From positions 1 through 44,915 of the forward strand of contig JAQVGD010000006.1 in the NCBI GenBank assembly GCA_028696945.1: a DNA stretch of 44,915 bases. The letters run 5' to 3'. This DNA is from Lutibacter sp. GTDB lineage: Bacteria; Bacteroidota; Bacteroidia; Flavobacteriales; Flavobacteriaceae. Both the position numbers and the translations under genes were made by a program. Of the stretch, positions 3,400-8,141 are shown piece by piece (within the stretch, counting starts at the first letter, position 1; each line of letters starts with the position of its first letter). Under the pieces are notes generated by a model that worked only from the letters and a program-made list of their open reading frames with translations, ran no database searches and had not been told where the DNA came from.

Positions 3400-3801
3400 T
3401 TACGCTTTATTAGAGAGAAGCAAGTTCATTATTTCTGAAGGAACTTTAACTGGTTTCATGGACTTTTTATCGAGTAAACACCAAATTGTTTTTGCTTTGG
3501 CCAATAACTTATCATCCTTTTTAATTTCAACAAAACGTTCTGATTTTACACCATAAGAATCTCCAATATAGGTGATTACCGTAATAACATCATTCAAAAC
3601 TGCTGGCAAAAAATAGTCGATTTCATGCCTTATGACTACCCAAACATATTTATCATCTATGGCAGTATTGCTAAGTTTACTCCAGTGTTTTTGAGCCGCA
3701 TTTTGCACCCAATGCAAATAAGTTACATTATTTACGTGATTTAAAGTATCAATGTCATTTTCAGAAATAATTAAGGTATATGAGAAGCGGTTATTATTCA
3801 T
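3400..3801 (-). CDS. Acyl-CoA thioesterase, 4HBT hotdog family (YbgC/FadM-like)
   Basis: Probable cytoplasmic enzyme hydrolysing the thioester bond of acyl-CoA or acyl-ACP. The 133 residues are the normal length for single-hotdog thioesterases. Residues about 14-30 (ENDIDTLNHVNNVTYLHWV) carry the family's DxxxHVNNxxYLxW motif at the start of the hotdog helix. A long central helix (NAAQKHWSKL) and strands with VIRHEIDYFLPAVLND follow, matching the part of the family that lines the tunnel. The substrate cannot be told from sequence. It is a single-gene unit, convergent with the glycosyltransferase, and upstream of it begins the long noncoding region. Confidence 0.85.
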   Translation of the reverse strand: MNNNRFSYTLIISENDIDTLNHVNNVTYLHWVQNAAQKHWSKLSNTAIDDKYVWVVIRHEIDYFLPAVLNDVITVITYIGDSYGVKSERFVEIKKDDKLLAKAKTIWCLLDKKSMKPVKVPSEIMNLLLSNKA

Positions 3802-3980
3802 TGTATAATTTTTTAAAACCCTTAAAATTAACAGATTTCTATCAATATTTAAAGACTAATTAGTCCTGAAATTAATTGAGAAAATAATTGGAATTATAAA
3901 TGTTATATTTTACATTTACAGCAGCAAAAAAATGTTCAAGAATTTTTAATCTTATCTTAAGAACGGATAAAAAAAATTTA

Positions 3981-4046
3981 CAGTCGTGATACTTACTTTA
4001 AAAAAATTTCGTGGGGACGACAGTTTTTTTGAGATTTTTACGACTG
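3981..4046. ncRNA. Palindromic element 1 (putative structured RNA or DNA hairpin)
   Basis: Outer arms CAGTCGT (3981-3987) and ACGACTG (4040-4046) are perfect complements. The exact centre holds TCGT, GGGG, ACGA (4009-4020), a 4-bp stem with a GGGG loop. On the plus strand the 3' arm is followed by TTTTT, as in an intrinsic terminator. On the minus strand the other arm is followed after a few bases by a longer T run. Two related elements follow downstream. Strand and nature (RNA or DNA) are undecided. Confidence 0.55.
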
Positions 4047-4072
4047 TTTTTAAAAAATGAAATTTTAAAAGG

Positions 4073-4141
4073 CAGTTGTAACATCTATATCTTTTTTATA
4101 CTACCGTTGTGGGGACGACAATTAAAAGATAGTTACAACTG
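4073..4141. ncRNA. Palindromic element 2, longest arms of the family
   Basis: CAGTTGTAAC (4073-4082) pairs perfectly with GTTACAACTG (4132-4141), extended after a three-base bulge by TATC with GATA. The centre is GTTGT, GGGG, ACGAC (4106-4119), pairing with one G-U. The plus-strand 3' arm runs straight into eight T residues, giving a terminator-like end. Compared with element 1, the arms differ but stay complementary. Confidence 0.55.
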
Positions 4142-4413
4142 TTTTTTTTATTATGGGTCATCAGTTTTTTTTACGTTATAATGTAATACAACGCTTTTTT
4201 GGAGTAATCAAACTTCCAGTGCTATTTCTAAATTTGAAATATGGTGTTAATGTATTTATGTAGATACGATTTAATTTAGCACATTTTCTTATGACAGTAT
4301 TTTTTTTAGTTAAAATCATAATTCAAAAATTTTCAGTTCCTATTTTATAACATTACTGTGTAAATTATTTTCAGACCAGTTTGGATTTGTTTCTTTATAA
4401 GTTTTTAAAAATA

Positions 4414-4482
4414 CAGCCGCAATATTTATCTTCCAGTTACCGTTGTGGGAAAGGTGGCTTTTTGATAAACGTGTTGCGGCTG
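4414..4482. ncRNA. Palindromic element 3
   Basis: CAGCCGCAA (4414-4422) pairs with TTGCGGCTG (4474-4482), extended by TTTATC with GATAAA. The centre shares ACCGTTGTGGG with element 2 but then diverges (AAAGGTGGC). Length is 69, as in element 2. There is no immediate T run on the plus strand; on the minus strand the arm is followed by TATTTTT. Confidence 0.5.
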
Positions 4483-4502
4483 ACTTTAGTTTTAACTATA
4501 AA

Positions 4503-4545
4503 TTTATCTGATTTAAACAAATTAAATTGCTTAAAATCAGATAAA
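4503..4545. repeat. Perfect 12-bp inverted repeat
   Basis: TTTATCTGATTT (4503-4514) and AAATCAGATAAA (4534-4545) are exact reverse complements with a 19-base spacer. It lies between palindromic elements 3 and 4. It could be a hairpin or an operator-like site. Confidence 0.5.
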
Positions 4546-4548
4546 AAT

Positions 4549-4609
4549 ATAGCAATTAGATACTTCAAAAGCGTGGGGTTTTTAATTCCGCTTTGAAATG
4601 TACTGCTAT
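4549..4609. repeat. Palindromic element 4 (weaker member)
   Basis: ATAGCA (4549-4554) pairs with TGCTAT (4604-4609). Inside, AAAGCG (4568-4573) pairs with CGCTTT (4589-4594). The inner loop begins TGGGG, recalling the GTGGGG centre of elements 1 and 2, but the arms are shorter and less regular. Confidence 0.35.
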
Positions 4610-4726
4610 TGAACATAACAGTTAGAGAAATAATTATTAATACTATTAATAATATTGAACTCATGTTTTTGGGGTTTTGGAGTTTGGGTTGATTATTTAT
4701 TCTACACTATTTTTTAATTAAAAAAA

Positions 4727-4818
4727 GAGGCAGTATCAAGGTTCTTACTAACCATCTATCTTCGTAAAAGCATTTTCGGATTGCTTTTTTAAGTATGTGA
4801 TTACAGTGACACTACCTC
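4727..4818 (-). terminator. Large hairpin downstream of marR, terminator-like on the minus strand
   Basis: GAGGCAGTATCA (4727-4738) pairs at 10 of 12 positions with TGACACTACCTC (4807-4818). An inner hairpin joins AAAAGCA with TGCTTTT near 4768-4790. On the minus strand the structure is followed directly by a T run, so it could end marR transcripts that read through the TTACT array. The size (92 bp) is unusual for a plain terminator. Confidence 0.4.
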
Positions 4819-4862
4819 TAGGAAATTAGTTTACATCTTCATAAATTCTTTCGGGTTTAATG

Positions 4863-5035: not shown

Positions 5036-5482
5036 TTATTTATTTCTAATTTTTTCCAATAATTTGTTCAGCGTCATAACTTCATCTTCTGTTAAACCTT
5101 CTATGATATCATTTTTAAATTCTGAATGAACATCATCAATTTCAGCCAACAAATTTAAACCTTTCTCTGTGATTCTAATTTCAACCATCCTCCTATTCTC
5201 TTCACTTTGAATTCTACTTATCAAACCTTTTAATCGTAATTTTTCAACCAAACGGGTTGTATTGCTATTTTTACTTACCATTTCGGCCTGCAATGTTAAA
5301 AGGTTTGCTGGTTCTCCTTTCAATTCTCTTAAAGAACGTAAAACTTGATATTGTTGAATGGATAAAGCATATTGTTTTAAATGATCTGAAAACTTTTCAT
5401 TCATCCAATTACCTGTATGCAATATATTCTCAATTGTATAATCAGGTAAGCTTAACGCATCCTTTTTATCATCTTTATTCAA
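5036..5482 (-). CDS. MarR-family transcriptional regulator
   Basis: Winged-helix DNA-binding regulator, probably a dimer. The 148 residues have the normal family layout: helices that form the dimer interface (about 14-40, ENILHTGNWMNEKFSDHL), a helix-turn-helix (about 60-90, LLTLQAEMVSKNSNTTRLVEKLRLKGL), the wing with RIQSEENRRMVEIRITEKG (about 91-109) and a C-terminal dimer helix. The DxR of many MarR wings is here E-N-R-R. The start is a TTG at 5482-5480; no ATG exists between it and the in-frame stop upstream. A good promoter (TACATTTG at 5534-5527) lies upstream. There is no adjacent target gene on either side: it is flanked by noncoding DNA, so the regulon is unknown. The leader carries a motif shared with palindromic element 2. 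Confidence 0.85.
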   Translation of the reverse strand: MNKDDKKDALSLPDYTIENILHTGNWMNEKFSDHLKQYALSIQQYQVLRSLRELKGEPANLLTLQAEMVSKNSNTTRLVEKLRLKGLISRIQSEENRRMVEIRITEKGLNLLAEIDDVHSEFKNDIIEGLTEDEVMTLNKLLEKIRNK

Positions 5483-5485
5483 CTT

Positions 5486-5516
5486 CGGGGGGACAACAAT
5501 TATCTATACTACTATT
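5486..5516 (-). promoter_or_regulatory. marR leader with shared GGGGAC motif and possible operator
   Basis: Plus-strand GGGGACAACAATTA (5487-5500) matches GGGGACGACAATTA of element 2 (4111-4124) at 13 of 14 positions. Overlapping it, ACAAT at about 5494 and ATTGT at about 5512 form the ends of an imperfect dyad between the promoter and the start codon. This is a plausible place for autoregulation, which is common in MarR proteins. Confidence 0.35.
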
Positions 5517-5526
5517 GTATATACAT

Positions 5527-5557
5527 CAAATGTATGTACAAATATTAAAACAAACAA
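5527..5557 (-). promoter_or_regulatory. marR promoter
   Basis: Minus strand: -7 box TACATTTG (5534-5527). Two TTTG -33 candidates lie 16 and 20 bases upstream within the plus-strand segment CAAACAAA (5551-5558). Transcription would start near 5521, leaving a leader of about 40 bases. Confidence 0.6.
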
Positions 5558-5995: not shown

Positions 5996-6096
5996 GCCCG
6001 ATGGGGCTTGATTTACATAAAAATCTATTTTTCTACAAATAGGTTGTCCCTCTGGGACTGAAACTGCTCCGTAGGAGCTAAATGTTTGTAGAAAAA
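5996..6096. repeat. Interspersed-repeat-like element with three small-loop hairpins
   Basis: TTTTTCTACAAA (6028-6039) and TTTGTAGAAAAA (6085-6096) form perfect 12-bp outer arms. Between them stand two hairpins with 3-base loops: GTCCC/GGGAC (6046-6058) and GCTCC/GGAGC (6066-6078). A third short hairpin, GCCC/GGGC (5996-6007), precedes the outer arm. The layout is that of a repeated intergenic element of the kind commonly scattered through Flavobacteriia. It could fold as a junction RNA. Confidence 0.6.
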
Positions 6097-6188
6097 TAAA
6101 ACGAGCATAACAAATTTTGATACACAGCAGAATGATTAATGGCGAACAGCATCTGTACCAATAAAAAATAAAATATAAACAGATGAAA
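6094..6188. repeat. 95-bp direct repeat, copy A
   Basis: Begins AAATAAAACGAGCATAAC and ends ATAAACAGATGAAA. It is nearly identical to copy B at 6270-6365, with two substitutions and one inserted A. Each copy ends in an inverted repeat: CATCTGT (6150-6156) with ACAGATG (6179-6185). Confidence 0.85.
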
Positions 6189-6269: not shown

Positions 6270-6365
6270 AAATAAAACGAGCATAACAAATTTTGATACA
6301 CAGCAGAATGATTAATGGCGAACTGCATCTGTACCAACAAAAAAATAAAATATAAACAGATGAAA
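6270..6365. repeat. 95-bp direct repeat, copy B
   Basis: Same sequence as copy A, 176 bases further on, ending seven bases before the typA stop codon. Its inverted repeat is CATCTGT (6326-6332) with ACAGATG (6356-6362). The spacer between copies (6189-6269) has its own partial dyad: AACGC near copy A and GCGTT at about 6232. Confidence 0.85.
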
Positions 6366-6371
6366 TAAAGT

Positions 6372-8141
6372 TTATTTGAACGAAATTTTTCGCATACGCA
6401 AACTTTGTGGTGTTACTTCTAAATATTCATCATCCTTAATATACTCCATACATTCTTCCAATGAAAATTCTTTTTTAGGAGCAATGTTTACTGCGGTATC
6501 TGTTCCAGTTTTACGAACATTTGTCAATTTTTTACCTTTTATAAGGTTGATAGACATATCATCTTGTCGGTTATTTTCACCAACAACTTGCCCTTTGTAA
6601 ATTTCCTGGTTAATATCAATAAAGAAAATGCCTCTGTCTCCCAACTTATCAATTGCGTAAGCTGTTGCTTTTCCTGCTTCCGCAGAAATTAAAGCACCAT
6701 TTACCACATCATTAAAGTCGCCTTTATAAGGACTGAAAGCAACAAAATTATGATTAATAATAGCAGTGCCAGCTGTTGCAGTCAATAATTTATTACGCAA
6801 ACCAATTAAACCTCTAGAAGGAATAGAAAACTCTAAATGTTGTAAATCGCCTTTTGGTTCCATAATTAACAAATCTCCTTTTTTTAAGGATACCAAATTA
6901 ATTACTTTACTGGATAATTCTTCTGGAACATCAATCACAAGTGTTTCATAAGGTTCACACTTAACACCATCAATATCTTTCATAATTACCTGAGGTCTTC
7001 CTACCTGTAATTCATATCCTTCTCTACGCATTGTTTCAATTAATACCGATAAATGTAAAATTCCTCTTCCATAAACATTAAATCTATCTTCACTCTCAGT
7101 ATCTTCAACGCTAAGTGCTAAATTCTTTTCAGTTTCTTTATAAAGTCTGTCACGTAAATGACGGGAAGTTACAAATTTGCCCTCTTTTCCATAAAATGGT
7201 GAGTTGTTAATGGTAAACAACATACTCATGGTAGGCTGATCCACTTTTAATCTTGTTAATGGTTCGGGATTTTCAAGATCGGTAATGGTATCGCCAATCT
7301 CAAATCCTTCAATCCCTGTTATGGCACAAATATCACCACTTCTTACGGAAGTTGCTCTATCTTTACCCATACCTTCAAAGGTATGAAGTTCTTTAATTCG
7401 TACTTTTTTAAAGCTTCCATCAGCTTTACAAATTGCATAATCTTTTCCTTCTTTTAAATCGCCTCTATAAACACGTCCGATAGCAATGCGGCCAACAAAC
7501 GATGTAAAATCTAAAGAAGTAATTTGCATTTGAGCAGTTCCTTCATAATAAGGAGCCTCGGGAATATTTTCTAATATTGCATCTAACAAAGGAATAATAT
7601 TATCGGTTTGTTCTCTCCAATTCGTATTCATCCAATTATATTTCGCCGAACCATAAATTGTAGTAAAATCTAGTTGTTTTTCAGTTGCATCCAAAGCAAA
7701 CATTAAATCGAACACTTTTTCTTGCACCAAATCGGGTGTGCAATTCTCTTTATCAACTTTGTTTACCACCAAAATTGGTGTTAAACCCAACTCCAATGCT
7801 TTTCCTAAAACAAAACGAGTTTGCGGCATTGGTCCTTCAAATGCATCAACTAGTAACAAAACACCATCGGCCATATTTAATACCCTTTCAACTTCACCAC
7901 CAAAATCGGCGTGACCAGGAGTATCAATAATATTGATTTTTACGCCTTTATAAATAATAGATACGTTTTTCGACAAAATGGTAATTCCTCTTTCTCTTTC
8001 TAAATCATTGCTGTCCAATAATAATTCAGTACGGACTTTTCGTTCGTCCAATATGTGTGCTTGATCAATAATTTTATCAACCAATGTCGTCTTACCGTGG
8101 TCAACGTGAGCTATAATGGCGATGTTTCTGATAGATTGCAT
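6372..8141 (-). CDS. typA: Ribosome-associated translational GTPase TypA/BipA
   Basis: EF-G-like GTPase that binds the 70S ribosome and supports 50S assembly and growth under stress. The G domain has G1 AHVDHGKT (10-17), G2 RGITI (about 50-54), G3 DTPGHADFGGEVERV (about 73-87), G4 NKVDKE and G5 SAKYNWM. It is followed by the beta-barrel domain 2, two alpha/beta domains (EGRGILHLSVLIETMRREGYE region, read here as YGRGILHL) and the BipA-specific C-terminal domain ending near YIKDDEYLEVTPQSLRMRK. The 589 residues are close to the usual 600. The minus-strand start at 8141 gives MQSIRNIAIIAHVDHGKT, the standard beginning. A TACTTTTG box lies at 8170-8163. Its 3' end abuts the repeat region, and no terminator is evident there. 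Confidence 0.95.
   Translation of the reverse strand: MQSIRNIAIIAHVDHGKTTLVDKIIDQAHILDERKVRTELLLDSNDLERERGITILSKNVSIIYKGVKINIIDTPGHADFGGEVERVLNMADGVLLLVDAFEGPMPQTRFVLGKALELGLTPILVVNKVDKENCTPDLVQEKVFDLMFALDATEKQLDFTTIYGSAKYNWMNTNWREQTDNIIPLLDAILENIPEAPYYEGTAQMQITSLDFTSFVGRIAIGRVYRGDLKEGKDYAICKADGSFKKVRIKELHTFEGMGKDRATSVRSGDICAITGIEGFEIGDTITDLENPEPLTRLKVDQPTMSMLFTINNSPFYGKEGKFVTSRHLRDRLYKETEKNLALSVEDTESEDRFNVYGRGILHLSVLIETMRREGYELQVGRPQVIMKDIDGVKCEPYETLVIDVPEELSSKVINLVSLKKGDLLIMEPKGDLQHLEFSIPSRGLIGLRNKLLTATAGTAIINHNFVAFSPYKGDFNDVVNGALISAEAGKATAYAIDKLGDRGIFFIDINQEIYKGQVVGENNRQDDMSINLIKGKKLTNVRKTGTDTAVNIAPKKEFSLEECMEYIKDDEYLEVTPQSLRMRKISFK

Follow-up and report, generated by a model that had tools for sequence, protein, structure and literature searches.

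Bacteria of the phylum Bacteroidota make little use of Shine-Dalgarno pairing, and to our knowledge few small RNAs of the Flavobacteriaceae have a tested target. In CopA/CopT and in the staphylococcal small RNAs with C-rich loops, an exposed loop that contains a run of G or C makes the first contact, close to where translation starts. The consulted parts of PMC11697453 describe FopS/GibS, a multicopy small RNA family of Bacteroides, and state that FopS was deposited in Rfam. For F. psychrophilum, the consulted part of PMC9723704 describes Rfp18, a multi-hairpin small RNA whose stem-loop is the predicted pairing region. Here we describe a hairpin family of Lutibacter that we provisionally assign to the trans-acting small RNAs, as a family not described before.

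The window analyzed is a 44,915-nt stretch of Lutibacter sp. DNA, contig C79 of a draft genome of 3.36 Mb in 310 contigs. It contains three hairpins, E1 (3981-4046, plus strand; 66 nt, arms CAGTCGT/ACGACTG), E2 (4073-4141, plus strand; 69 nt, arms CAGTTGT/ACAACTG) and E3 (4414-4482, strand unassigned; 69 nt, arms CAGCCGC/GCGGCTG). Direct reading showed that a preliminary description had given their coordinates, lengths and arms exactly to the base, and the T runs that it placed behind two elements are five residues behind E1 (4047-4051) and eight behind E2 (4142-4149). The head of E1 is TTTCGTGGGGACGACAG and that of E2 is ATACTACCGTTGTGGGGACGACAATT (4098-4123), and copies of GTGGGGACGACA start at 4011 in E1 and at 4109 in E2. 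Copies of ACCGTTGTGGG start at 4103 in E2 and at 4439 in E3 (4439-4449); the centre that E2 and E3 had been said to share holds for the left half of the head, the only half that E3 has, and not for the rest. Stretches of 73-79 nt with E1, E2 and E3 folded with z scores of -5.0, -4.2 and -5.7, respectively, each beating 200 of 200 shuffles. A decayed third site, GGGTCATCAGTTTTTTT at 4155-4171 (plus strand), was recognized by repeat search and in an ortholog alignment of the locus, which took in the 18 of 20 loci fitting a pattern; several relatives have TTTGTGGGGACAACAGTTTTT.

The window locus was compared in 22 Lutibacter genomes (the 20 best loci from a 91-base query around E2, plus L046 and L047), where a pattern search found E1 in 22/22, E2 in 21/22 and E3 in 21/22; in the locus missed by the E2 pattern (L031), E2 is present with a diverged arm. 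The 91-base query had matches in 37 of the 38 genomes of the genus. Covariance model R1 was built from alignment A5, which comprises 23 of the 39 sequences of alignments A2 and A4 (A2 excludes L028, with an 8-nt insertion in the head; L031 was added by hand). R1 likewise matched 37 of the 38 genomes, with 1-7 matches each at E-values up to 0.001, and it recovered the window E2, a copy that is part of its own alignment, at 5.3e-14. Across 299 genomes of the family, five were matched, namely three of Lutibacter's genus, G040 and G149; weak copies may have been missed there, because scoring was limited to 16 candidates in each genome. An exact search for CTAYCGTTGTGGGGACRACA in the GTDB genome collection returned 69 stretches, 53 of them titled Lutibacter, 15 from other Flavobacteriaceae or Bacteroidetes (two labelled Gelidibacter) and one from Nodosilinea, the last a lone 20-mer (L126) that was excluded from later comparison.

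The R1 matches numbered 113, in 105 distinct rows, and 96.8% of their pair cells were standard. Both-sided change was seen at 8 of 8 outer pairs, in 87 cells compared with 24 in shuffles, a level reached by 0 of 500 shuffles in an alignment that was fitted to the model structure and so leans towards it. MAFFT alignments gave weaker covariation, with a score reached by 0/500 shuffles in A5 and 11/500 in E1, and the RNAalifold covariation terms were small (E1, -0.93; E2, -0.16; E3, +0.11; sister copies, -0.34). Taken alone, E3 had no covariation support (term +0.11, with one pair C-A in 3/21 cells). Selection on base pairing, which had been proposed from the three copies of the window, is thus supported at the level of the family, by A5 and by the 105 distinct model rows, and the covariance-model search of Flavobacteriaceae suggested earlier found both homologues outside the strain, with covarying arms, and dispersed copies, so that the elements are not specific to this strain. 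In the family alignments the loop was the most conserved part while the arms drifted, and an unpaired TACTACC beside the loop was invariant in 18 sister copies.

The strand carrying the G-rich head was the better fold in 84 of 100 elements, a difference in fold energy to which the constant head contributes. Among enclosing pairs of these 100 elements, G.U pairs made up 285/2520 on the G-head strand and 168/2360 on the other; the E1 rows (n=19) had 2-9 G.U pairs on the G-head strand and 0-2 on the other. The strand comparison excludes duplicates, stretches containing N and elements with fewer than 10 enclosing pairs on both strands, and its counts are not independent, since the elements are related by descent. 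These G.U pairs point to a family read as RNA on the plus strand. Mobile DNA hairpins of the REP/BIME or MITE kind are likewise palindromic, intergenic, dispersed and multi-copy, and the genome has Y1 transposase-like proteins (6 Y1_Tnp matches, 5 over the cut-off). REP/BIME elements would be expected as many near-identical dispersed palindromes; the Lutibacter elements are few (1-7 per genome in 37/38 genomes), occupy the same site in 22/22 loci, keep a fixed loop between drifting arms and show an RNA-like strand asymmetry, which makes a mobile DNA family very improbable.

Database comparisons did not place the family among described ones. Rfam release 15 (4227 families) gave no match at gathering in the window. 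The best score near E1 and E2 was for CRISPR-DR50 (27.2 bits against a gathering threshold of 47), Flavo-1 RNA was not among the four matches at E-values up to 10 in 3850-4700, and seven sister loci gave two weak matches only, far below gathering. In the open-access literature, exact head strings occurred only in papers unrelated by title, and among the matches listed nothing relevant appeared on Lutibacter small RNAs or RNA-seq, or on small RNAs with G-rich kissing loops in Bacteroidetes; as far as we searched this literature, the hairpin family is not in print. A CRISPR array would have identical repeats and unique spacers of regular length; it was rejected, since no two of the three copies are alike and the distances between them are unequal. 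A tandem array does occur at L014 (1960-2170), where units of the head with a short stem (TTGATTATAAAACCGTTGTGGGGACAACTATTTTAT) recur every 41 or 71 bp, and there the spacer is repeated too. Integron attC sites, which have conserved R boxes near an integron integrase, show the reverse pattern to variable ends around a fixed centre, and were set aside because the Lutibacter ends vary and the centre is fixed.

A promoter-like element lies upstream of E1 on the plus strand at 3888-3918, with TTG at 3888-3890, 20 nt, and TACATTTA at 3911-3918. A TAnnTTT[GA] box was present 5' of E1 in 22/22 loci; 19 of them have it at -69 to -81 and the other three at -36. The consulted part of PMC9723704 gives the consensus TAnnTTTG, to which the window box is similar, but it ends in A. 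The region 3923-4150 folded with an MFE z score of -4.2, and a 5' hairpin, H0, is predicted at 3940-3979 (plus strand). The sequence of H0 differs between species, and a hairpin of this type between box and E1 is predicted in 19/22 loci; the other three (L023, L027 and L028) have a shorter spacer without it. Since E1 and E2 stand behind one promoter-like box, in a conserved layout and with T5 and T8 behind them, they are probably parts of a single small RNA, about 227 nt long (approximately 3923-4149, plus strand) and composed of a 5' region, H0, E1, E2 and T8. Three separate small RNAs of 65-75 nt, as suggested previously, are not what this layout indicates, and E3 may instead be a target site on the minus strand. 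The choice that had been left even between small RNAs and REP/BIME-like DNA now leans to the small RNA side, given the G.U bias, the promoter-like box and the T runs. Near the putative 5' end, GTTCAAGAAT (3934-3943, plus strand) is conserved in many loci and is a possible second seed; its complement was not enriched in the window (9 matches, 7.5 expected).

Other copies of the hairpin lie between an OmpA/PD40 gene (assigned by Pfam) and an M3 peptidase gene, between a gene for a CxxCxxCC-domain (YkgJ-like) protein and a CAP gene, and in the vicinity of gcvP and of the threonine synthase gene; the M3 peptidase, gcvP, threonine synthase and, below, TypA/BipA-like names were assigned by eye from the protein letters. 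Most heads seen are downstream of genes, and several copies sit between convergent genes. The latter would be expected of bidirectional terminators whose similar loops were spread by gene conversion and have no regulatory role. We consider this improbable, because the loop, which is dispensable for termination, is the most conserved part, and the window copy stands behind its own promoter-like box.

The likely target of the inferred RNA lies 1.3 kb from E2. A gene for a MarR-family regulator (Pfam MarR, 4.6e-9) occupies 5036-5482 on the minus strand, with a probable TTG start at 5482 by comparison with orthologs. Its leader carries AATTGTTGTCCCC (5489-5501, minus strand), complementary to the heads, and a promoter box, TACATTTG (5527-5534, minus strand), that recurs in many orthologs. 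The leader motif can form 13 bp with E2, and E1 adds approximately 7 bp towards the start codon. An exact search of the 3.36-Mb genome for TTGTYGTCCCC returned three sites, two of them antisense to two heads and the third in the MarR leader (5489-5499), immediately before the probable TTG start. With one mismatch allowed, the head complement was not enriched in the genome (37 hits, compared with 75 for the reversed pattern).

We then compared duplex energies between heads and leaders, the latter taken from -40 to +12 and classed by pattern (L115 may be a stray in the CAP class, and the leader of G149 falls outside the MarR class). The E2 head paired with Lutibacter MarR leaders at -19.2 to -24.6 kcal/mol in 15/15 distinct leaders, all of which were better than every one of 291 control leaders (median -7.1, best -18.8 kcal/mol), in energies that omit the cost of opening the head, itself paired. 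Just left of GGGG, the head of E1 is unlike that of E2 and of the sister copies; E1 gains pairing with CGAA that extends to the start codon, and a locus's own E1 paired with the MarR leader better than its own E2 in 16/20 loci. Own and cross combinations of head and leader paired alike (-26.54 and -26.46). Four loci have variant E2 heads, and the MarR leader has changed to match in one of them (L133) but not in L046, L141 or L047; the compensatory-change test is a poor one, as the head is nearly invariant.

The motif and the heads also co-occur across genomes. A MarR search of 149 family genomes gave a match in 114; in the 30 best orthologs, four leaders had the CCC motif, two from Lutibacter and one each from G040 and G149, and all four come from genomes with heads detected by R1; for the 26 genomes with motif-less MarR leaders, membership in the 299-genome R1 set was taken from handles. 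The G149 leader (ATTGTTGTTCCCACAACAATG) differs in sequence, yet 14-15 bases of the head in that genome pair with it (-28.2 to -28.4), and its predicted fold is a hairpin that spans the AUG and has UCCC as its loop. For G040, whose leader also carries the CCC motif, the energy of -16.3 lies within the control range and resembles that of some motif-less orthologs (to -16.2). Complementarity to the translation start is thus conserved for MarR of Lutibacter and of G149, and weakly for G040. A further pairing, of ACUAC in the head with GUAGUAU in MarR, was dropped because the string is missing from the G149 leader.

The G149 motif is in addition a perfect inverted repeat (ATTGTTGT-TCCC-ACAACAAT), and MarR proteins bind inverted repeats, so that the head might be a DNA operator, for example of MarR itself, repeated at several sites. 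Such an operator is improbable in light of the Lutibacter leaders seen, in which the motif is not palindromic, and of the heads, most of which are downstream of genes, within arms that show covariation and G.U pairs, both typical of RNA. It is further disfavored by another promoter palindrome, seen by eye around TTGTATATACAA in many motif-less MarR orthologs. The palindrome around CATTTGTATATACAAATG at the MarR promoters of many family members (e.g. L200, L202, L209 and L224) is perhaps an autoregulatory operator.

Two further features were noted around the MarR gene. Between it and a small hydrophobic ORF, at 4722-4822 on the minus strand, lies a second structured RNA candidate, with a 12-13-bp outer stem (GAGGTAG...CTGCCTC) around a AAAAAGCAATCCGAAAATGCTTTT hairpin, then a T run (z -4.3). 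It had no Rfam match at E-values up to 1 and was found in 3 of 100 genomes: the window genome, another Lutibacter (strong) and G088 (weak, E 3.1e-4). Positions 6094-6173 and 6270-6349 form an 80-bp direct repeat, 95% identical, just 3' of ORF 6372-8141 (minus strand), which is TypA/BipA-like.

With moderate rather than high confidence, we favor the reading that E1-E2 is one trans-acting antisense RNA that represses MarR translation, with paralogous heads elsewhere and weaker CAP targets. Plus-strand transcription would run from approximately 3923 to a terminator at 4149, and each hairpin would expose GGGG at the tip of a short stem (E2, GUUGU-GGGG-ACGAC; E1, CGU-GGGG-ACG). This loop would first meet the CCCC run of the neighboring MarR mRNA leader, where AAUUGUUGUCCCCCCGAAG is the expected contact, and the contact would zip to about 13 bp with E2 or about 20 bp with E1. 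The duplex would cover the region immediately 5' of the start codon, reaching the codon itself with E1, and would block initiation of MarR translation. Paralogous heads, after OmpA/PD40 genes and convergent to CAP-lipoprotein operons, could feed the same or related targets, and CAP mRNAs, with CCCC directly before the ATG, would be weaker ones. The computed support consists of the conserved paired structure, the strand bias, the location, the complementarity and the co-occurrence of motif and heads; from these we infer transcription, the RNA ends, the start codon and repression as the outcome, and the effect on MarR could instead be activation.

Part of the same evidence would also fit heads that are protein-bound RNA hairpins in 3' UTRs or terminators and act in cis on the stability or termination of the upstream transcript, the MarR complementarity being incidental or the leader being bound by something else. 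Several sister hairpins begin approximately 5-75 nt past the stop of a same-strand OmpA/PD40 gene, T runs follow E1 and E2, and the invariant unpaired TACTACC is left unexplained by MarR pairing; a motif that is inverted in the leader relative to the hairpins is also expected under protein recognition. The window pair, however, has its own promoter-like box, and the gene upstream of it (3400-3801) is on the minus strand. This, together with the 15/15 MarR leaders that beat all 291 controls and the shared occurrence of motif and heads, leads us to regard cis action as unlikely.

The antisense reading extends to CAP-domain lipoprotein genes, which at many loci run towards the hairpins together with a small ORF of approximately 44-62 codons; the CAP domain was confirmed in the one gene tested (Pfam CAP, 2.3e-15). 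The small ORFs that follow CAP-lipoprotein genes form a family with the motif INTLxPxFxxxN (e.g. L014 2182-2370, minus strand; L049; L056), two members of which were tested and had no Pfam or NCBIfam match. The window strain has no CAP gene between E2 and E3. A 47-aa small ORF remains there (4176-4319, minus strand), a relative of the small ORF 3' of the CAP-lipoprotein genes of sister loci, and a 75-aa small ORF at 4437-4664 (minus strand) has a hydrophobic N-terminus and CCCC in its leader; neither had a Pfam or NCBIfam family. On contig C114, neither a CAP gene nor the small ORF was seen beside the hairpin. CCCC occurred within 40 bases of the start in 19/21 CAP leaders, compared with 4/291 controls. 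Duplexes of CAP leaders with the head had a median of -12.3, with 10/21 under the 5% point of the controls and 3/21 under the 1% point, and small-ORF leaders mostly paired poorly with the head (4/36 under the 5% point). The pattern AACCCCN{3,9}ATGAA was not enriched genome-wide (16 hits, and 16 for the reversed pattern); therefore, the CAP leaders are special rather than part of a big class.

At loci with a CAP gene, E3 lies upstream of it, and the C-A cells of E3 on the plus strand are G.U on the minus strand. Minus-strand E3 has the complement of the left half of the head in E2, and it paired with the E2 head of its own locus at -20.0 to -32.3 kcal/mol in 21/21 loci, which is not independent proof, as it follows from the shared string. 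When E3 was folded in isolation, the minus strand was better in 5/8 CAP-assigned loci and 0/13 others, by weak differences. From this arrangement, a CAP-lipoprotein operon may have its target site in E3, on the minus strand; the window strain lacks the CAP gene of this operon. A tentative and on balance doubtful extension would divide the head into two seeds that overlap: its right half GUGGGGACGACAAUU would silence MarR, and its left half ACCGUUGUGGG would recognize E3 within the leader of the operon for CAP lipoprotein and small protein. The multicopy family would thereby couple a regulator to surface lipoproteins and an undescribed small protein. Were this true, copies convergent to CAP-lipoprotein operons would stand at three kinds of loci.

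The locus bears on the way in which start sites are recognized by antisense RNAs where Shine-Dalgarno pairing is hardly used. It offers a compact, testable case: the loop would be the seed, each inferred RNA would have it twice, further copies lie at other loci, and the adjacent gene, the likely target, has a C run at its start. It also points to an undescribed family of small proteins tied to CAP lipoproteins. Compared with CopA/CopT and the staphylococcal small RNAs, it would be the small RNA that has the G run in Lutibacter, and the mRNA that has the C run. Rfp18 and the other small RNAs of F. psychrophilum also belong to Flavobacteriaceae and were compared by description only; according to the consulted part of PMC9723704, the predicted targets of Rfp18 are metalloprotease and adhesin mRNAs, unlike the MarR mRNA proposed here. 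The nearest described system that we found is FopS, and its architecture differs. The consulted parts of PMC11697453 describe, again within Bacteroidota, paralogous small RNAs with one seed that pair near the start codon of the target, and members that are intergenic, antisense or derived from 3' UTRs, both of which are likenesses to the Lutibacter family. Membership in FopS was rejected, as there was no Rfam match (assuming that the deposited model is in release 15) and the seed is a hairpin loop. The FopS seed is described as a single-stranded 5' stretch, followed by one terminator hairpin, that targets susC-like mRNAs, whereas in the Lutibacter family the seed would be the hairpin loop itself, displayed twice per inferred transcript.
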